From NCBI GenBank assembly GCA_944380355.1, contig CALWHJ010000003.1:1-64000 (forward strand): a DNA stretch of 64,000 nucleotides. The letters are read 5' to 3'. Under the pieces are notes generated by a model that was given only the letters and a program-made list of their open reading frames with translations, was not told where the DNA came from and made no database searches. Positions 47,707-56,519 of the stretch are shown in pieces; position 1 is the stretch's first letter, and every line of letters begins with the position of its first letter. This stretch comes from an uncultured Christensenellaceae bacterium. GTDB lineage: Bacteria > Bacillota > Clostridia > Christensenellales > UBA3700. A program made the translations under genes and the position numbers.

Positions 47707-47728
47707 AAAAGCTCCCTCGGGAGCTTTT
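47707..47728 (+). terminator. Terminator overlapping the degenerate CRISPR repeat
   Basis: The stem AAAAGCTCC with GGAGCTTTT (4-nt loop) lies 12 bases after the zinc-ribbon gene. Its right arm and short T-run form part of the degenerate first repeat of the CRISPR array. Confidence 0.8.
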
Positions 47729-49201
47729 GTTGTTTGGTATGGTATAATCTTCTTAATAAATACAACGAGGTGAATAAAGTTTTAGTTCCCTTTTGTTGTT
47801 TGGTATGGTATAATCGAAGACAAAATTAATTGACCGCTTTTGACGTTTTAGTTCCCTTTTGTTGTTTGGTATGGTATAATCTGTTTCCATTTAGGATAAG
47901 CGAGTCGATGGTTTTAGTTCCCTTTTGTTGTTTGGTATGGTATAATCCATCGGCAAACAAGGGCATTATACCACTTGTTTTAGTTCCCTTTTGTTGTTTG
48001 GTATGGTATAATTTTGCGTAAAGAGCAAGCGCAACTCAATAGGTTTTAGTTCCCTTTTGTTGTTTGGTATGGTATAATGACACCTCATTTTTTTTATCGG
48101 TGTCAACGGTTTTAGTTCCCTTTTGTTGTTTGGTATGGTATAATTTCGATTATATATTTAAAAATCTGATTTATAGTTTTAGTTCCCTTTTGTTGTTTGG
48201 TATGGTATAATTAAGCGAATGAAGTTTCAGGAACGATTCTGGTTTTAGTTCCCTTTTGTTGTTTGGTATGGTATAATTGATACAAGCGGTAGTTTTTCTC
48301 GGCTATCGTTTTAGTTCCCTTTTGTTGTTTGGTATGGTATAATAATCGCTGGTATTTACTCTATGCCTATATGGTTTTAGTTCCCTTTTGTTGTTTGGTA
48401 TGGTATAATTGTACTTACATAGTATGATAGACTCACTAGTTTTAGTTCCCTTTTGTTGTTTGGTATGGTATAATCGCTCTTTTCGCTGAGATTCGATTTT
48501 CTCTGTTTTAGTTCCCTTTTGTTGTTTGGTATGGTATAATAAGACCGATTGCAAGGGATATGCCGGCAAAGGTTTTAGTTCCCTTTTGTTGTTTGGTATG
48601 GTATAATTAAACAGAATAATATAAACGGGGAAGGCTAGTTTTAGTTCCCTTTTGTTGTTTGGTATGGTATAATTCATTAGGCTTTTGCAAAGAAAAGAAA
48701 AAAGTTTTAGTTCCCTTTTGTTGTTTGGTATGGTATAATGTAACGTGTCTGAAATGACGGTGCGATACGGTTTTAGTTCCCTTTTGTTGTTTGGTATGGT
48801 ATAATATTCGCTCTTTGAGTTTGTTTGTTGTATCTGTTTTAGTTCCCTTTTGTTGTTTGGTATGGTATAATGCGCTGACAAGTGGCTTAAGGAATACAAA
48901 CGTTTTAGTTCCCTTTTGTTGTTTGGTATGGTATAATAGTACAAAGGCGATATGCCAACACGGAGGAGTTTTAGTTCCCTTTTGTTGTTTGGTATGGTAT
49001 AATCTTCTTCGGGCGTTATAGGGTATTCTTGCTGTTTTAGTTCCCTTTTGTTGTTTGGTATGGTATAATTCTGCGATTATCGGCTTTATCTCTCGCCTGG
49101 TTTTAGTTCCCTTTTGTTGTTTGGTATGGTATAATTATGGAGGATTTATGAAAAGAGCAGACATTGTTTTAGTTCCCTTTTGTTGTTTGGTATGGTATAA
49201 T
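47724..49201 (+). CRISPR. Type II-C CRISPR array, 22 identical repeats plus one degenerate repeat
   Basis: Twenty-two identical 36-nt repeats run from 47779 to 49201. They begin GTTTTAGTTCCC and end GGTATGGTATAAT. One degenerate repeat at the left end keeps only its last 25 nt (47724-47748). The 22 spacers are nearly all 30 nt, with two of 31 (48145-48175, 48541-48571) and one of 29 (48410-48438). Each repeat ends in TGGTATAAT, a perfect extended -10 promoter. This is the arrangement known from Neisseria and Campylobacter II-C arrays, where crRNAs start inside repeats. The transcribed strand is inferred as plus, facing the cas genes. The degenerate end suggests the oldest spacers are on the left. 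Confidence 0.98.
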
Positions 49202-49216
49202 AGAGGAACAAAAAGA

Positions 49217-49331: not shown

Positions 49332-49652
49332 TTAGAAAAACGATAATTGATAATATTCTGCTTTTTGTTCTTCGCATTTGACTTTACCTCGCACTATATA
49401 CATATTAGCATATTGTTTTTCCGTAACGACCATTACTCTTACAGAGCCTTCCTCGGGCGCATAGTTGGCAAGCCTTCGGCAGTGCATCTGAGCATTGTCG
49501 AAGTTATTGCAAAGCCTTCCGTACACGGAAAACTGTATCATATAGTACCCGTCGTCTATCATAAACTTTCTGAAGTCCGTAGCAATCTTTCGTTGTGCTT
49601 TTGTCATAACGGGCAAATCAAAGAATACTATTATCCTCATAAACTTACTCAT
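49332..49652 (-). CDS. cas2: CRISPR-associated endoribonuclease/adaptation protein Cas2
   Basis: This 106-residue protein has the ferredoxin-like Cas2 fold. The first strand carries the usual aspartate (RIIVFFDLPVMT), and YYMIQFSVYGRLC and VRVMVVTEKQY follow in the expected places. Cas2 forms a dimer that bridges two Cas1 dimers in the spacer integration complex. The gene overlaps cas1 by 4 bases (ATGA) and is the last gene of the cas9-cas1-cas2 operon. Length is typical for type II systems. Confidence 0.96.
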   Translation of the reverse strand: MSKFMRIIVFFDLPVMTKAQRKIATDFRKFMIDDGYYMIQFSVYGRLCNNFDNAQMHCRRLANYAPEEGSVRVMVVTEKQYANMYIVRGKVKCEEQKAEYYQLSFF

Positions 49653-50542
49653 AGATATTCGTGCGACTTAATCTCTTGCATAATCGGCAATTTAAGTTTG
49701 TTGACGCCTTGCTCTAAAGAGGTCATATAACTGTCTATGCATATCTCGATACTCCTCGGCAAAACCTGATTGGCATTGTCAATCGACACGTCCGTGTTAT
49801 TAAGATTAAAAAGCAACTTCTTCGCATCGCTATCGAGAGTGCTGAGCGAAAATTTACTAACCGTCCTATCTACGATAGCGCGGTAAGGCTCTATAAAATC
49901 GTCGGCAAGGTTAAAAGCGTTCAGCTCGCTGGCGTGGTGAATTCCCAAAAATGCGCTAAATCCGCGTGCCGCTAAAGTGCGGGCAATAAGTCCTCGCACA
50001 ATCGCATAGCCGTAATTCAGACAAGCGTTGATACCGTTGTCGCTGCGCCTGTCAAAATCTTTTCCGAAAAGCTCCTTAAAATAAATACGTGCCGCCGTTG
50101 CTTCTAAATTTGACGTATCGTCGCTAAGCACCGTTTGGGATAATGCAAACAGTTTATCCGCGCCAACGCTCTTGCCTTCCAATCTCAAACATTCCGCTTG
50201 ATTTGCTATTTTGCGTGATACGATACTCTGCCACATTTGCTTGACAAGAGGTTTCTTGACTTGAGTCTGCAATCTGAATACTCTCAGATGAGCAAAATAC
50301 TGTCCGTAGGGCATCAATATCGCTGTAGGTATATGCTTTTGGTCGCATACAAATACCGCGACTCCCTCTTTTGCAAGCCTTGACAAAAGACTTATGCTGA
50401 CAGAACATTGCAAGTTGTCTATCATAACGCAATTTATATCCTCAATGGCAAATCGCGCCTCTTTTTCGCCTGAGAGTATAAGCCCGCTGCTATCAAGCGA
50501 GAGTTTGCAATACGAACTCACAAAGATATTTATGTAGCCCAT
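49649..50542 (-). CDS. cas1: CRISPR-associated integrase Cas1 (type II)
   Basis: This 297-residue protein is the integrase that inserts new spacers with Cas2. The metal-binding residues are visible as Glu in RIYFKELFG, His in LGIHHASELN, and an acidic group in LADDFIEPYR. The N-terminal beta domain (VSSYCKLSLDSSGLIL) is also standard. The gene starts inside the cas9 stop codon (TAATG, 1-base overlap) and overlaps cas2 by 4 bases, so the three are translationally coupled. No csn2 or cas4 is present, which makes this subtype II-C. Confidence 0.97.
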   Translation of the reverse strand: MGYINIFVSSYCKLSLDSSGLILSGEKEARFAIEDINCVMIDNLQCSVSISLLSRLAKEGVAVFVCDQKHIPTAILMPYGQYFAHLRVFRLQTQVKKPLVKQMWQSIVSRKIANQAECLRLEGKSVGADKLFALSQTVLSDDTSNLEATAARIYFKELFGKDFDRRSDNGINACLNYGYAIVRGLIARTLAARGFSAFLGIHHASELNAFNLADDFIEPYRAIVDRTVSKFSLSTLDSDAKKLLFNLNNTDVSIDNANQVLPRSIEICIDSYMTSLEQGVNKLKLPIMQEIKSHEYL

Positions 50543-53500
50543 TATCTTTTCTTTTTAAGCTCAAGCGGCAATCTCTTTTCGCTCTTTACTTCACTGTAAT
50601 TGCCCAATACGTCTACAGTGTATTTTTTGAATTGCTGCAAAGTAGTTATGCCCACTCTTGATTTATAGCAGTTATCTATATCCGTCACACCTATCGTACA
50701 AACACTTCTGTCAAACCCTTCAAAATAGAGAATATCTTTGAAAACTATTTTGTTTTTGGGCAAACTACTTCTTAGACTATCATTTATTTTATCTAGTTTA
50801 AATCCTCTTTTATTTTCAATATATACCAAATCATCCTTATGTAAAGTAAACAAGAATTGATAGCTATCGTCAATTTGTGGCCATTCTTCCTCGTTTTTGC
50901 CAGCCGTTGCAACTTTATTAGGCAAAACTCCTTTATATAAATCTGCGACATATATAGGCACGGCATAATATTTTCCGCATTTTGTAAATATATCTATGCG
51001 TATCATAGCGTCGTTGCCTACAAGCGCATTAGTCTTGTCAATAAGCATACCGCTTGTGCTGGTGTCTTTGATTTTTACGCTTCTGACGATAGGACCTTGC
51101 CTTCCGTCCTTTGTGGGCTTGTATACGGGCTCTGCAAAAGCTTTTTGAGCATTGCCGTCAAATTCCTTGAGACGCGACAAAAGAAGGTTGTAAAGCTTAA
51201 TATCGGACGATTTGTCATAGTAACCCGTTATTTCATCTTTCTTCTTGTCGTAAGAGAGTTTTGTCAAAGGCGTTTTTACCGTTACGAAACCTTCGTCGAT
51301 GTGCTTTGCACTCATATAAGTTGCCGCGTGCATAGTGCCGATTGCCTTACGTCTGGGCATACGGCTGACAAAGACGGGTTTGACTGCTTCTATCTGCTCT
51401 TGCGTGTATCCTATGGCCTGCAAAGCGTCTACCATAGAATCCTTGTCGGGCAAACATCTTATTCTAAGCTCCTCCACAAAATCTTTGTAAGGCTGCTTTG
51501 CGCCCCTCTTAAGCAAAATTGCAACTTCCTTATAACCGAATACTTCTCCCGTCTCTTCGTCGGTATATTCGCCTCCTCCCAACTTGACGTTTTCTTTCAT
51601 CTTATAAAATTCTGTAAGGTTTTTGATTACTCCGCTATCCATAACCGCGATAATAGCCGCGTCGACAGCGTGATGCAAATCCCCGTCCTCTCTCACTTTG
51701 TTTATGCCCCACACGCGTCTTAACGTAGCAGTCATCTTGCCCTTGACGGCATATACGGTACGCTTTACCTTTTTAAGCGGCGTAAAGTATAAATAATCTT
51801 GCAAAAGATTCTGCACAAATCTCGAAAGATAAGACGTATCGTTGAGCGCTCTGTTTTTCCACTCAGTTTCGTCAATCTTTTCTTTTAGCAGTTTTTCTCG
51901 TTTTGCGGGATTATCCTTATACAATGCATATACAAGCGCTCTGTACTCCTTTTCTCGTCCTTTTCGTATCTGATATGCCATAGCCGTATCGTTACGTTTG
52001 TCTTGGTTCTCTTTTGTCAAGACAAGGACTTTATTGCTAAAGCTGTCGTCAAAGCTCTTGCTGTATGGCAGTATATGGTCTACTTGAGCATAGTCTTCGT
52101 CTTTGAAAAGTCTGTCTGCGTCAATCACTTTGTCGCTATATGGACATTTGCCGCCTTGCTCCTCATAGAGTTTGTATTTGATAAACTCGCTTGCTTTGGG
52201 GTCTCTGCCGAAAGTATCTTTGAACGCAGCCCTCAATTTATTATTGCTTTCTTCGCGCTCTTTGTTGTCCTTTTCTATTTTCTTGCGCTCCTCGAATGTC
52301 TTGGACATTTCTCTCGCCAGCTCGATATTAATGGCTACCGGTGAGCCGTATTCGCGTATAAGTGCATTTATGACCTTTACAGCCTGACTCACCGAGCGTT
52401 TTACGACAGGCGAAGTGATTTCGTCTATTCTCGCCCTCATATCTTCGCCCTGCAAAAGCACCGACTTTTCGCCGTCTTTGTCTGCACTGATATCCGCTTT
52501 TTCCATAGCTTCGCTGTATTTAAAACCTTGCTCGAGATAAGGCTCAATCGCTTTAAGCGCACTTAAAGAAAGATTGGACGTCTTTGTGCAATCGAGTTGT
52601 AAAATGTTCAGCACTTCTTCTTCACCGAGAGAATTAAGCAAAGAATTGTCGGATATCTGTTCTCTGATACGCTCTTCGCTCTTGTTGAATAAAAGTATTT
52701 TTGCTACTTCGTCTATAATATCCCTGTTACGATGCTCATCTGACAACGCTTTTGCTATTGTCGTACTGTTTTTCATCGTGACGAAAACCTTGTCTTCGGC
52801 TTTCTTTATAATCTCTTCAAGCGTAATTTCTTTTTCCTCTTCCCCTTTCTTTTTGGGCGCCTGATAGGATATGTTGAATATATATTCGGCTTCTAGCGCG
52901 AGCAGCTTTCTTAAGTCCTTATATTTAATTTCCGTTTTTTTGTTCAACAGCTCTCTGACCGACGCTCTTTCTTCGTTGCTCAAAAATCTCTCTTCGCCGT
53001 TGCCCTGAATTTTAAGATTGTTGATTTTTTGCAAAGCGTTGGAATAATCTACTGTATAGCTATACTTGGGAGCGCGGTATTCCCCGTTGAACATACCTAC
53101 TGCAAAGTTACTTGAATAGGGACTACCTTTTCCGGGTCCTTCGTCAAAGCTTCTCTGACGCGTAAATATCTCTATGAATTTTTCTTCTGTATTTTCATCG
53201 GCAAGAGTATTTCCCAGCTCACGCTGTTTTGCAAACAATATCTTTGCTTCTTCTATAAGCCTGTCTCTAGACACCGTTTTAGAATAGTCTCCGCCTTTAT
53301 TGCGCATACAACAAAGCTTATTGCCGTTAGGGTCAGTACTCGCGTAATGCTTATACAGCATCTCACCTACGGTACGATAACTGTTGTCTTGCATTATTAT
53401 ATCGTTCTGCTTGGTAGCAGCAAGCAATTTTCCGTCCTCTTTGGAAGAGGTGTTTTTGCGGTTGCTTTTAAATCCTCTATGCTTTGCTATAGAATAAAGT

Positions 53501-53835
53501 ACACGGGCAAAATCACGCTCGCTTATTTTCTCGTCCAGCGCGGCGCATCTCAATTCATTGACGTCACGCTCGCCTATTTTGCGCGACATATCCTCTTGCC
53601 CCAAAAGCTTTCGCAAGTCGTCAAGACGCAAAACTTTGCGCCTAATTCTTCTCCTCAGCCCTCTTGCCAGTCTTCTGCCTTCGGCAAGACTTGCGCCCGT
53701 CTTAGGCACTTCCGCTTTGTCAAAAGTACGCGAATGAAGACTGAGTATTCTCTTGGCTTGTCCGCTCTCGTCAACTTCGACAGCAGCCGCTCCGCATGAT
53801 GCAATACCTAAATCAAGTCCTATTTTGTAAAACAT
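50542..53835 (-). CDS. cas9: CRISPR-associated endonuclease Cas9, type II-C
   Basis: This 1097-residue protein is close in size to NmeCas9 and GeoCas9. RuvC-I has Asp8 (KIGLDLGIASCG). An arginine-rich bridge helix spans about residues 48-75, and HRGFKSNRK lies near 119-127. RuvC-II has Glu505 (INIELAREM). HNH has His587 in VDHILPYS, with Asn601 and Asn610 nearby. RuvC-III has HHAVDA at 721-726. All catalytic residues are present, so it should be an active RNA-guided nuclease. The C-terminal third holds the wedge and PAM-interacting domains; the PAM cannot be read from sequence. A GAGAGGG ribosome binding site precedes the start, and the tracrRNA gene ends about 45 bases upstream. Confidence 0.98.
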   Translation of the reverse strand: MFYKIGLDLGIASCGAAAVEVDESGQAKRILSLHSRTFDKAEVPKTGASLAEGRRLARGLRRRIRRKVLRLDDLRKLLGQEDMSRKIGERDVNELRCAALDEKISERDFARVLYSIAKHRGFKSNRKNTSSKEDGKLLAATKQNDIIMQDNSYRTVGEMLYKHYASTDPNGNKLCCMRNKGGDYSKTVSRDRLIEEAKILFAKQRELGNTLADENTEEKFIEIFTRQRSFDEGPGKGSPYSSNFAVGMFNGEYRAPKYSYTVDYSNALQKINNLKIQGNGEERFLSNEERASVRELLNKKTEIKYKDLRKLLALEAEYIFNISYQAPKKKGEEEKEITLEEIIKKAEDKVFVTMKNSTTIAKALSDEHRNRDIIDEVAKILLFNKSEERIREQISDNSLLNSLGEEEVLNILQLDCTKTSNLSLSALKAIEPYLEQGFKYSEAMEKADISADKDGEKSVLLQGEDMRARIDEITSPVVKRSVSQAVKVINALIREYGSPVAINIELAREMSKTFEERKKIEKDNKEREESNNKLRAAFKDTFGRDPKASEFIKYKLYEEQGGKCPYSDKVIDADRLFKDEDYAQVDHILPYSKSFDDSFSNKVLVLTKENQDKRNDTAMAYQIRKGREKEYRALVYALYKDNPAKREKLLKEKIDETEWKNRALNDTSYLSRFVQNLLQDYLYFTPLKKVKRTVYAVKGKMTATLRRVWGINKVREDGDLHHAVDAAIIAVMDSGVIKNLTEFYKMKENVKLGGGEYTDEETGEVFGYKEVAILLKRGAKQPYKDFVEELRIRCLPDKDSMVDALQAIGYTQEQIEAVKPVFVSRMPRRKAIGTMHAATYMSAKHIDEGFVTVKTPLTKLSYDKKKDEITGYYDKSSDIKLYNLLLSRLKEFDGNAQKAFAEPVYKPTKDGRQGPIVRSVKIKDTSTSGMLIDKTNALVGNDAMIRIDIFTKCGKYYAVPIYVADLYKGVLPNKVATAGKNEEEWPQIDDSYQFLFTLHKDDLVYIENKRGFKLDKINDSLRSSLPKNKIVFKDILYFEGFDRSVCTIGVTDIDNCYKSRVGITTLQQFKKYTVDVLGNYSEVKSEKRLPLELKKKR

Positions 53836-53878: not shown

Positions 53879-53981
53879 AAAAAAGATGTCCCGAGGTTAT
53901 CGGGACAGAGCTTTTCGGGATAAAACCCTTATTTTGGTAACCTATTTGTTGTTTGGTATGGTATATTTGTTCAGTTACCTT
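53879..53981 (-). ncRNA. tracrRNA
   Basis: On the minus strand the anti-repeat is complementary to the CRISPR repeat. The plus strand matches repeat positions 14-34 exactly at 53945-53965, and the rest of the repeat pairs with bulges down to 53931. Next come a short GGG/CCC hairpin (53917-53928) and a 7-bp terminator stem (53888-53894 with 53900-53906), followed by six T residues (53884-53879). A promoter with 17-bp spacing lies just upstream, giving an RNA of about 103 nt. The order anti-repeat, short hairpin, terminator hairpin fits II-C tracrRNAs. It points in the same direction as cas9. Confidence 0.93.
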
Positions 53982-54105
53982 AGTTATAGATTATCACATA
54001 ACTTTTGTTTAGTCAATATCACTTCTGGAAAAATTTATATAATTTTTTGCAAATTTTGTCGATTTCAGAAGTTTATATACTATATGTCCAAAATATTGTA
54101 CATGT
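53970..54105 (-). repeat. Duplicated regulatory segment, copy 1 (tracrRNA side)
   Basis: This segment aligns without gaps to 55393-55528. Exact islands are a 13-mer CACATAACTTTTG (53995-54007), GTCAATATC (54012-54020) and a 20-mer starting GTCCAAAATATTG (54086-54105). The parts between are partly conserved. The distal island holds an imperfect dyad TGTCCAAAA-TATTGTACA (54085-54102). Confidence 0.85.
53988..54016 (-). promoter_or_regulatory. tracrRNA promoter
   Basis: TTGACT (54011-54016) and TAATCT (53988-53993) are 17 bp apart on the minus strand, placing the transcript start near 53981. The same boxes occur in register 1423 bp to the right, ahead of the small-ORF cluster. Confidence 0.75.
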
Positions 54106-54215
54106 TAGGCTAATATAAGTCATTTATTGGCTAGATTATTAATATTTCAGCACTTTCTTGAATAATTATTTTTTTAAAAGTTGAGTTGCCTTGATTTGAT
54201 TAATACTTGTTAGAT

Positions 54216-54473
54216 TTAGTCTATCATATACATTGCAAAATTCATTTCACCGTGTATGTCGCCAAATCTGTGTTTCCATTTTTCCATTACTTCTTTGCCG
54301 TAATCGTTAAGCTCTCCGTATTCGTCAAGCATACTGTAAAAATCAGAGACTTCTACCCACCTGTCTATTGATTTTTTAGTTACGCCGTACTGCTCAAATA
54401 TTTTACGAAGATTTGATTGCGCCTTTTCAAAAGGAATTTTCAGTCTTTCACTTATAATGTCCTTATTATACAT
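54216..54473 (-). CDS. Small hypothetical protein, 85 aa
   Basis: I do not recognise this protein. It is 85 residues, predicted all-helical, and has neither a membrane segment nor a signal peptide. Positive and negative charges are mixed, with aromatic residues in the C-terminal half (FYSMLDEYGELNDYG). A strong AGGAGGGG ribosome binding site precedes the ATG. It is the last of four small genes on the minus strand between tracrRNA and the structured RNA candidates. The gap to the previous gene is 72 bases. Confidence 0.65.
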   Translation of the reverse strand: MYNKDIISERLKIPFEKAQSNLRKIFEQYGVTKKSIDRWVEVSDFYSMLDEYGELNDYGKEVMEKWKHRFGDIHGEMNFAMYMID

Positions 54474-54545
54474 CTATTGCCCCTCCTTTATATTTCACTA
54501 AATTTAGAACTTATTGAGTTGTTTTTGACTTTTTATAATCCAACA

Positions 54546-54794
54546 TCAGAATTTTAATCTGGATTCTAACTTTTCTTCGTCAAATACGAGTCCTACAACT
54601 TCTGTATAAAATTCTTGTTCTTCGATTTTCTTTTTTGCTAAATCAGTCATATAAGCAAGTGCCTTATCCTTATCATTGCAACAACAAATAGAATGCAAAG
54701 TTTCTTCTATTACGAAATCGGAATAATTTGTCATTTTACATATCTCTGTAAATTTGTCTGCTTTGTTTCCCAAAATTTCTTTTATAGTCGCCAT
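54546..54794 (-). CDS. Small hypothetical protein, 82 aa, paralogue of the 55059-55358 product
   Basis: The function is unknown. The 82-residue product is helical and soluble, with a CCC cluster (HSICCCNDKDKAL). Its second half aligns with the protein encoded at 55059-55358: both have a hydrophobic residue plus Glu, then DK.KAL.Y..D.A, then E.EF...V..L..DE, and end R.KF. The two are therefore paralogues from a local duplication. An AGAGGA ribosome binding site precedes the ATG. It lies 26 bases after the previous small gene. Confidence 0.7.
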   Translation of the reverse strand: MATIKEILGNKADKFTEICKMTNYSDFVIEETLHSICCCNDKDKALAYMTDLAKKKIEEQEFYTEVVGLVFDEEKLESRLKF

Positions 54795-54820
54795 ATTATC
54801 CTCTTCTGTGGAACAGTTTT

Positions 54821-55039
54821 TTAGAAGTCTAATGACATAGCGTAAGCCTTACCACTTGGCGATACTTGGTCCTTTCCGCTTCTTAAACTAACTCTTACCC
54901 CTATCCAATAACTTTCTTCTATTTCTTTCTCGTGTTCTTTGAGATATTGGTCTACCTCTTCTTTGGGATAAGCCCTACAATCTCTTCTGAAAGATTTCTC
55001 TACCGCCTCTTTATACTCTTTAAGTGTCATTATTTCCAT
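54821..55039 (-). CDS. Small hypothetical protein, 72 aa
   Basis: The start at 55039 has GGAGG six bases upstream; a longer frame from 55114 would overlap the previous gene and has no such site. The 72-residue product is strongly charged in its first 45 residues (LKEYKEAVEKSFRRDCRAYP, then a Lys/Glu-rich helix). A short segment follows (YWIGVRVSLRSG). I see no known domain. It is third from last in the four-gene cluster. Confidence 0.6.
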   Translation of the reverse strand: MEIMTLKEYKEAVEKSFRRDCRAYPKEEVDQYLKEHEKEIEESYWIGVRVSLRSGKDQVSPSGKAYAMSLDF

Positions 55040-55058
55040 ATCATACCTCCGTGTCTTG

Positions 55059-55358
55059 CTACTCTTCGTCAAGCGGTTTGGATACTTGGACCAGTTCTGC
55101 CACTCCGCCGTCACCGAACTTAAATCTCATACGTTCAGTCTTCTCGTCCATTGTCAAATCCATTACCGCACCGAAAAATTCGGATTCACTTACTCCTCTC
55201 CTTGCAAAGTCAAGAAGATAATCCAGTGCGGCTTCTTTATCTTTCTGAATACTTATATCTATTGCCGCTTTCTCTACTATATCCCGACTATAACCTGCTC
55301 TTTTTGCAAGTCTTCCTAATTCTCCAAGTTTATTTTTGTAATCCTCACTTACCCTCAT
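55059..55358 (-). CDS. Small hypothetical protein, 99 aa, first gene of the small-ORF cluster
   Basis: The function is unknown. The 99-residue product is helical, with a basic N-terminus (KNKLGELGRLAKRAGYSRD). A middle part shared with the 82-residue paralogue follows (QKDKEAALDYLLDFARRG, SESEFFGAVMDL), and the tail is acidic. The GGAG before the ATG is only one base away, which is unusually close and may mean weak or regulated translation. The promoter 53 bases upstream is a copy of the tracrRNA promoter region. Confidence 0.65.
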   Translation of the reverse strand: MRVSEDYKNKLGELGRLAKRAGYSRDIVEKAAIDISIQKDKEAALDYLLDFARRGVSESEFFGAVMDLTMDEKTERMRFKFGDGGVAELVQVSKPLDEE

Positions 55359-55392
55359 ACTCCGTATTCTTTTTATCTGTATCGCATATACG

Positions 55393-55528
55393 TTTGGTTA
55401 TCTCAACTATAAAGTAGCACATAACTTTTGCCGCGTCAATATCGCCCTAAGCATAAAATGCACGATTTTTTGTAAAATTTTGCGTTTTTAGAATAATAGA
55501 TGCTAATTGTCCAAAATATTGTACATGT
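55393..55528 (-). repeat. Duplicated regulatory segment, copy 2 (small-ORF side)
   Basis: This segment aligns gap-free with 53970-54105. It shares CACATAACTTTTG (55418-55430), GTCAATATC (55435-55443) and the 20-mer starting GTCCAAAATATTG (55509-55528). The distance between the 13-mer and the 20-mer is 91 bp in both copies. Weaker similarity continues into the region that corresponds to the tracrRNA 5' end and anti-repeat. Confidence 0.85.
55411..55439 (-). promoter_or_regulatory. Promoter of the small-ORF cluster (copy of the tracrRNA promoter)
   Basis: TTGACG (55434-55439) and TACTTT (55411-55416) are 17 bp apart. Both sit exactly 1423 bp from the equivalent boxes of the tracrRNA promoter. 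The start would be near 55404, giving a leader of about 46 nt. Confidence 0.65.
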
Positions 55529-55652
55529 AGTTTTTTAATCAGCTGTTTTTTAAGCATACAATGATTTTGATTTTAGTTGTAAGCAATAAAAATTTTTTAA
55601 TTTTAAGTCTATATCGTTTGACTATTTAGGCTTTTCACTTTATAATAACTAT

Positions 55653-55803
55653 TAGGTAAACGGCTTTTATGCGCGCTTACACCTGCCGCGCGACTGTCGC
55701 GGAATTGCCCCGAGTGGTTAATCTCGGGGACATTTTAAGAGTTGCTTTAACCTTGATTTATCAAGGCACTAAGCCGGAAGGGCGGAATTGCAACTCTTTT
55801 TTT
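55653..55803 (+). ncRNA. Candidate structured ncRNA 1 (about 150 nt)
   Basis: A promoter (TTGACT 55618-55623, 17 bp, TATAAT 55641-55646) leads to a region with many helices. They include CCGCG/CGCGG, a 7-bp stem CCCCGAG/CTCGGGG (55708-55714 with 55723-55729), and an inner stem CCTTGA/TCAAGG (55751-55766). A 9-bp closing stem AAGAGTTGC/GCAACTCTT (55737-55745 with 55790-55798) runs into seven T residues. CGGCTT (55661-55666) can pair with AAGCCG (55771-55776) as a pseudoknot. No coding frame is visible. The class is not recognised; Rfam families of Clostridia such as raiA RNA are possibilities I cannot test. Confidence 0.75.
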
Positions 55804-55982
55804 ATTGTTGTAAATTACGTTTGACTTTTTTATATCTTAGCTTTATAATATACCAGATAGATGAAATATGAAGTCAAATACTTTCCATCGGCGGCATCTG
55901 CTTTGACAAATCGCTTACGAAGTTCGTCTCTCTTTTTTATACTCACTTGACAGTAAATATTATCTTGTGGTATAATCATATT

Positions 55983-56178
55983 GTTGGAAAGGTTTCGTTC
56001 GCCAAAAGGCTTGAACGGGCGTAAAAACGAATTAAGTTTCGGTTCGCGACCTTTCTATTTCCAACAACTAGAGCGTAGCCGACTATTAAGGCAAGTGTAA
56101 AGATTGCCATGGCAAGCGCAAACATTGGCCACCCGTATGGGGACACGCGGTTTGTTGAAATACAGGCCGCATTTTTTT
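55983..56178 (+). ncRNA. Candidate structured ncRNA 2 (about 196 nt)
   Basis: The promoter is TTGACA (55947-55952), 18 bp, then an extended -10 TGGTATAAT (to 55976). The first domain is closed by GTTGGAAA/TTTCCAAC (55983-55990 with 56058-56065) and contains a GTTC/GAAC hairpin. The second domain has two tandem hairpins of the same form, GGCAAGTGTAAA...TTGCC (56090-56108) and GGCAAGCGCAAA...TTGGCC (56111-56130). A terminator GCGG/CCGC (56147-56170) with seven T residues ends it. No coding frame is credible. It is not a tmRNA, RNase P or SRP RNA by any motif I can see. Confidence 0.75.
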
Positions 56179-56353
56179 ATTAATAATACCTTATAGGTTA
56201 GTGTCGGATTTAATTCTACTGCGCATACAAAAGGCGGTATATGCCGTTTTTTCATTTTGCCATACAGTAATTTGTACGCAAGCGCGACGGCTTCAGACAG
56301 ATTGTATACAATGTCTGATATCTTGACTTCTAAAAAACACAAGCTTTATTAAA

Positions 56354-56431
56354 TTTGCGACGTCGGGGTATTCCGACCAGACATTCTAAGTCTATTCGCA
56401 ACTGGCGGACAACTTCGGTTGTCCGTTTTTT
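56354..56431 (+). ncRNA. Candidate structured ncRNA 3 (about 78 nt, three-way junction)
   Basis: A possible promoter (TTGACT 56323-56328, 17 bp, TTATTA 56346-56351) precedes it, with a perfect 12-bp palindrome ATTGTATACAAT just upstream (56301-56312). The RNA has a closing stem TTGCGA/TCGCAA (56355-56360 with 56396-56401). This encloses two hairpins, GTCGG/CCGAC and AGAC/GTCT. A terminator stem with a UUCG loop (56406-56425) and six T residues follows. It ends before the convergent iolG gene, so it is stand-alone and not a riboswitch for a plus-strand gene. Confidence 0.65.
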
Positions 56432-56442
56432 ATTACAATAAA

Positions 56443-56468
56443 GAGGGAGTTCCTTTCGAAACTCCCTC
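56443..56468 (-). terminator. Terminator of the inositol operon
   Basis: A 9-bp stem (GAGGGAGTT with AACTCCCTC) lies about 50 bases after the iolG stop and is followed by TTTATT on the minus strand. Confidence 0.85.
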
Positions 56469-56519
56469 GGTGAATTATTGCGCCTGCCATAAGGCGGACG
56501 TCTTACTTTGACGAATTGA

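Follow-up and report, generated by a model that had tools for sequence, protein, structure and literature searches.

A predicted tracrRNA control region with a conserved distal dyad, duplicated ahead of a cassette of small genes in a Christensenellaceae bacterium

The stretch immediately upstream of a tracrRNA gene recurs ahead of four small open reading frames in the window analysed here, 64,000 nucleotides of a contig from an uncultured Christensenellaceae bacterium of the gut. Does this second copy place the small genes under the control that governs the CRISPR-Cas unit, or is it a remnant of duplication? To our knowledge, little is known about how type II-C systems are switched on. Sharing of the control region by a second gene set would indicate functions that go together with CRISPR activation, and a conserved site known from this CRISPR locus alone, next to a weak promoter, would be a direct handle on its regulator.

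The CRISPR-Cas unit consisted of the following features:

53881..53981, minus strand: tracrRNA, with the anti-repeat at about 53931-53967 and a terminator at 53907-53887
50542..53835, minus strand: Cas9 of type II-C, 1097 aa (TIGR01865, 700 bits; HNH_4 and RuvC domains)
49649-50542, minus strand: cas1 (Pfam Cas_Cas1)
49332-49652, minus strand: cas2 (Pfam CRISPR_Cas2)
47708..49202, plus strand: CRISPR array with the 36-nt repeat GTTTTAGTTCCCTTTTGTTGTTTGGTATGGTATAAT, 22 spacers and a degenerate first repeat at 47708

Cas9 with its HNH and RuvC domains, Cas1, Cas2, the absence of Csn2 and Cas4 and the position of the array directly after cas2 identified the system as type II-C. The tracrRNA had an anti-repeat, 3' hairpins and a terminator (TGTCCCG...CGGGACA-T6). 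Perfect complementarity to the array repeat extended over 21 nt of the anti-repeat with a duplex energy of -37 kcal/mol, while the remainder formed a bulged lower stem. A search of Rfam with 47.5-57 kb gave no match even at E 0.5. The cas9 start was located about 50 nt past the tracrRNA terminator, and the distance from the anti-repeat to the cas9 start was 115-136 nt in four relatives from other families, as it is here, and about 283 nt in two. Because of these distances we infer that the promoter of copy 1 probably serves the whole tracrRNA-cas9-cas1-cas2 unit by read-through. An earlier note on this DNA had assigned to copy 1 the control of the Cas9 guide cofactor; that it holds the tracrRNA promoter stands, but its reach is probably not limited to the tracrRNA.

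Every array repeat ended in TGGTATAAT, an extended -10 box and thereby a candidate for the crRNA promoters that type II-C systems carry within their repeats. In the outermost repeat (47708-47749; L017 852-893; L018 1855-1896) one half was replaced by a terminator hairpin, and the half with the extended -10 box was kept. This degenerate repeat was conserved in all three species with the locus and, by its sequence, could still start the first crRNA. At the other end, the tracrRNA 5' leader (53945-53980) can pair by its GGTAAC with GTTACC of its own anti-repeat, as judged by eye. By the same inspection the relatives from other families have AGTAAC and GTTACT. Both sides changed and the pairing was kept, which suggests a hairpin at the 5' end whose loop exposes the anti-repeat. 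Cas9 itself was a mosaic (50542-53835; L017 4590-7862; L018 4557-7850): identity to the sister genome G016 was 97-100% at residues 101-800 and 59-79% at residues 801-1098, and the latter segment resembled that of a second sister genome, G008 (92-95% up to residue 1000). It looks as if the C-terminal, PAM-reading part had been swapped between sister species.

The duplication and the elements predicted within it were as follows:

53956..54105, minus strand: control region copy 1, which comprises the predicted promoter of the tracrRNA-cas9 unit, its upstream element and its 5' leader
55379..55528, minus strand: control region copy 2, ahead of the small-ORF operon
55379..55410, minus strand: 5' leader of copy 2, with remnants of the tracrRNA leader and of about the first 10 anti-repeat nucleotides (TATGCGATAC in place of TATACCATAC)
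54016-53988, minus strand: predicted copy 1 promoter, -35 TTGACT, 17 bp, extended -10 TAATCT, with the conserved 13-mer (53995-54007) in the spacer
55439-55411, minus strand: predicted copy 2 promoter, -35 TTGACG, 17 bp, -10 TACTTT, with the conserved 13-mer at 55418-55430
54085..54102, minus strand: 18-bp imperfect dyad TGTACAATATTTTGGACA of copy 1, a putative operator centred near -112
55508..55525, minus strand: the same 18-mer in copy 2

Copies 1 and 2 were ungapped homologues at an offset of 1423 with 106 of 150 positions identical. The next best ungapped match to copy 1 on the same strand of the window reached 71/150, and in blastn against the whole 1.6-Mb genome copy 2 had an E value of 2e-14, the third match one of 0.018. 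The gapless alignment reported in the earlier note is thus real. Also present in both copies were the 13-mer CACATAACTTTTG (53995/55418), the 9-mer GTCAATATC (54012/55435) and the distal 20-mer TGTCCAAAATATTGTACATG (54085/55508) named there, the last being part of an identity that actually spans 21 positions, and the -35 and -10 boxes fell at matching positions as claimed, both pairs lying on the minus strand and having 17 bp between the boxes. The homology extended slightly beyond the segments described in that note, into the tracrRNA leader.

This extension bears on the direction of copying. Past the -10 box, 22 of 32 positions of copy 2 still agreed with the tracrRNA leader, a match expected by chance with a probability of about 4e-5; among them were 8 of the first 10 anti-repeat bases, where the likeness ended. 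Such letters are meaningful only in a tracrRNA, which indicates that the copying ran from the tracrRNA to the small ORFs and that copy 2 is derived from a tracrRNA gene. Judged by its divergence, the copy is old. In a comparison of four copies (copy 1 of this window, here W1, copy 2 of the window, G016 and G008; all genomes compared are metagenome assemblies, copy 2 having been found in a single one of these) the interval from the dyad to the -35 region of copy 2 was equidistant from W1 (37/63), G016 (38/63) and G008 (36/63), while W1 and G008 shared 42/63. Copy 2 may therefore have split off before these species, have come from a further relative or have changed faster.

The islands were kept in copy 2 despite the divergence of this interval. 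The distal dyad, with 14 of its 18 positions symmetric and its centre about 112 bp ahead of the predicted start, agrees with the imperfect dyad about 110 bp upstream that the earlier note had described. It was identical in every pair of the four copies (18/18) and stood at a constant distance from the promoter, while the interval was conserved at 36-42/63 (57-67%) in all pairs but W1-G016 (57/63). Over the whole 150 bp copy 1 matched G016 at 141 and G008 at 120 positions without gaps, and the four copies had no indel. The longest invariant run was 19 columns, P = 0.001 when columns were shuffled given the overall conservation. An alignment of relatives had been expected to show islands above the background, and the dyad did so; G016 and G008, whose lack of the islands would have spoken for a neutral leftover, both keep it 18/18.

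Among the matches listed for 46 genomes of the family, the exact 18-mer occurred only at this CRISPR locus, and none was found in IMG/VR viral contigs. A dyad-like match near the type II-A locus of G024 was located inside csn2 and was rejected as chance. The other Cas9 loci of the family belonged to unrelated II-A-like systems, and none had a similar control region. Elsewhere in this genome the near-matches examined (up to 3 mismatches) all fell within open reading frames, so that no wider regulon of the dyad was visible here to back the idea of a shared regulator. No regulator gene for the dyad was found.

The promoters beside the dyad were weak. At related Cas9 loci of other families (n = 5) the tracrRNA promoters had a 17-bp spacer, 11 of the 12 sigma-70 consensus positions and no dyad, while all four copies in this clade matched at 8 of 12 and had the dyad. 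The distance from the -35 box of copy 1 to the anti-repeat was 49, equal in G325, G016 and G008. A weak sigma-70 promoter with a predicted conserved operator at a fixed distance upstream resembles an activator-dependent promoter. Thus the promoter of the clade is probably regulated and dependent on an activator. For the regulator itself an activator is more likely than a repressor, the alternative being repression by looping.

What follows copy 2 is an operon of four small genes in the order P4, P3, P2, P1, with gaps of 19, 26 and 72 nt:

55059..55358, minus strand: P4, 99 aa, first gene of the operon, a paralogue of P2 (32% identity)
54821..55039, minus strand: P3, 72 aa, with a homologue in G029 (83% identical)
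54546..54794, minus strand: P2, 82 aa, with homologues in G040 (77%) and G029 (59%), a predicted helical bundle
54216..54473, minus strand: P1, 85 aa, an orphan between P2 and copy 1

Clear ribosome sites preceded P3 and P2; that of P4 was poor, with GGAG only 1 nt from the start codon. For P3 a comparison with its homologue yielded dN 0.08 and dS 0.66 (dN/dS about 0.12), and for P2 dN was 0.14 with dS saturated. By this pattern P2 and P3 are real proteins under purifying selection, though orphans, and they occur as well in genomes that lack this Cas9. The dS of P3 was below the core-gene dS between the two genera (1.5-2.0, measured on G040), which fits horizontal exchange of P3 and suggests it. 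In G029 the homologues of P2 and P3 were found at an unrelated site, an aromatic-biosynthesis junction. In G040 the P2 homologue immediately followed iolG, at the position corresponding to that of this window, and there was no CRISPR; that genome had no detectable Cas1 and no close Cas9, which speaks against a function of the P2/P4 family tied to this Cas9. Searches of 390 other genomes from the class, of IMG/VR, of phages and of plasmids did not detect the family. Searches of Pfam, PHROGs, padloc and NCBIfam with P1-P4 gave nothing reliable (best PHROG E 0.009, for P1), and no HTH partner was recognised. The predicted fold of P2 (pLDDT 86) had no match in the PDB, and that of P1 was of low confidence. 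Profile matches of P2/P4 to designed dTor proteins were discounted as covering 25 residues of repeated helix only. The G040 gene beside the P2 homologue (L041 8348-8731) begins with DWREEEHPRDKDGKFTDKG, which we take to resemble linkers of phage head (MuF-type) proteins; Pfam gave nothing reliable for it. Such a likeness may point to a polymorphic-toxin or immunity origin of the cassette.

Of 16 further genomes of the genus, only G016 and G008 had this Cas9, with 90% and 87% identity, and in both the site lies between the same neighbours, iolG and the tracrRNA-cas9 unit. These two genomes keep the tracrRNA control region with its dyad and lack copy 2 and the small ORFs:

54103..56470, no strand assigned: block of 2.4 kb found in this genome, where G016 and G008 have about 83 other bp instead

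The CRISPR locus was thus found in three species and copy 2 in this genome only. The edge of the insertion at 54103 coincided with the outer edge of the dyad. In G016 other small ORFs (89, 82 and 49 aa; L017 893-1739) form a cassette that separates the degenerate repeat from the array; either end of this CRISPR locus thus receives small-ORF cassettes. On the plus strand of the block, 55600-56440 held at least four structured, probably non-coding elements, three of them with near-perfect sigma-70 promoters (55618, 55821 and 55947; 11-12/12) and some with terminators. The cluster had no match in Rfam, and single modules of it were dispersed in further genomes of the family (G040, G022, G003, G012, G006, G007 and G004).

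Could copy 2 be a neutral leftover, a promoter fragment left by recombination beside the tracrRNA, with islands that survived by chance and small ORFs that are silent or use another promoter? The occurrence of the duplicate in one genome only, the dyad lying exactly at the edge of the 2.4-kb insertion, the poor ribosome site of P4 and a locus prone to recombination all agree with it. On the other hand, the interval of copy 2 has drifted to 36-38/63, yet the dyad is intact at 18/18 together with ATATTGAC and the 13-mer, P2 and P3 are under purifying selection, and the sister species keep the same dyad without any duplicate. We regard such a leftover as unlikely, though it deserves some weight. 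It is considerably less probable that the 18-mer is not an operator but the recombination or integration site of a mobile cassette that inserts beside the tracrRNA. The insertion boundary at the dyad edge, the dyad on both sides of the small-ORF block and the low dS of P3 to another genus (0.66 against 1.5-2.0 for the core, measured on G040), which suggests horizontal movement, would be expected of it. However, the homology covers 150 bp of promoter and not the dyad alone, the spacing from dyad to -35 box is constant in four copies including those of species without the insert, the sequence outside copy 2 is unlike the empty site of G016 or G008, and the homologous cassettes in G029 and G040 have no copy of the dyad.

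The small ORFs might also be anti-CRISPR genes, or accessory genes of Cas9, that took over the CRISPR promoter for expression in step with Cas9. A small orphan operon adjoining tracrRNA-cas9 with the same control region is what this would produce. Yet the P2/P4 family occurs in G040, which lacks a detectable Cas1 or close Cas9, and at the unrelated site in G029, and neither relatives from phages, plasmids or IMG/VR, nor a padloc match, nor a recognised HTH partner came to light, so that we consider this role improbable.

Taken together, we favor, with a probability of roughly 0.6, a weak-promoter CRISPR control region with its dyad, an old copy of which was captured by the small-ORF cassette and probably answers to a shared signal. 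In this mechanism 53956-54105 would control the tracrRNA and then, with probable read-through, cas9-cas1-cas2, by a weak extended -10 sigma-70 promoter and the 18-bp dyad about 112 bp upstream, to which a dedicated regulator, likelier an activator than a repressor, probably binds. An old copy of the region, cut just inside the tracrRNA anti-repeat, would have been captured by the lineage-specific cassette of four small-protein genes at the variable spot between iolG and the tracrRNA. Copy 2 retained the putative operator, its spacing and the promoter core, and the signal that governs the CRISPR unit probably also drives expression of the small-ORF operon, so that both would be switched together. 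That one regulator serves both units is our best inference, at roughly even odds. A terminator scan found no minus-strand terminator between P1 and copy 1, and for this reason transcription of the small ORFs may run on into the CRISPR unit. More speculative, and doubtful as it stands, is the proposal that tracrRNA, cas9, cas1 and cas2 of the clade obey one dedicated activator, that the cassette joined this regulon by capturing the whole control region, and that its proteins are made only when CRISPR is on, modulating CRISPR or sharing its trigger.

Regulators of CRISPR modules with a tracrRNA are known from other types. CvkR is a MerR-type repressor of the type V-K CAST, encoded within the module, that acts directly on Pcas12k and PtnsB (PMC9938897). 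The regulator proposed here would likewise be dedicated to its CRISPR module, but this locus contains no such regulator gene. Type II-A cas genes are autoregulated by tracr-L acting as a natural single guide (PMC11417352, PMC12216829). Control of cas9 through the tracrRNA region would be common to both cases; here, in contrast, the tracrRNA strand showed no repeat-like segment upstream, and the spacers of three arrays had at most an unconvincing 11-nt seed match to the control regions when compared with 53.8-56.5 kb. Anti-CRISPR operons with Aca regulators are likewise made up of small orphan ORFs and have a dyad at their promoter (PMC9410906). Unlike those, the P1-P4 locus has no recognised HTH gene and no phage or plasmid relatives, and carriage by a mobile element was likewise not found; its dyad also occurs in species without the operon. 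In the type II-A system of Streptococcus agalactiae CovR represses the distal cas promoter P2cas by overlapping the start site and leaves Ptracr unaffected (PMC12216829). That system differs in type and has no duplication onto other genes. In both, however, a transcription factor, here a putative one, would set the level of Cas9 at a promoter adjoining tracrRNA and cas9.
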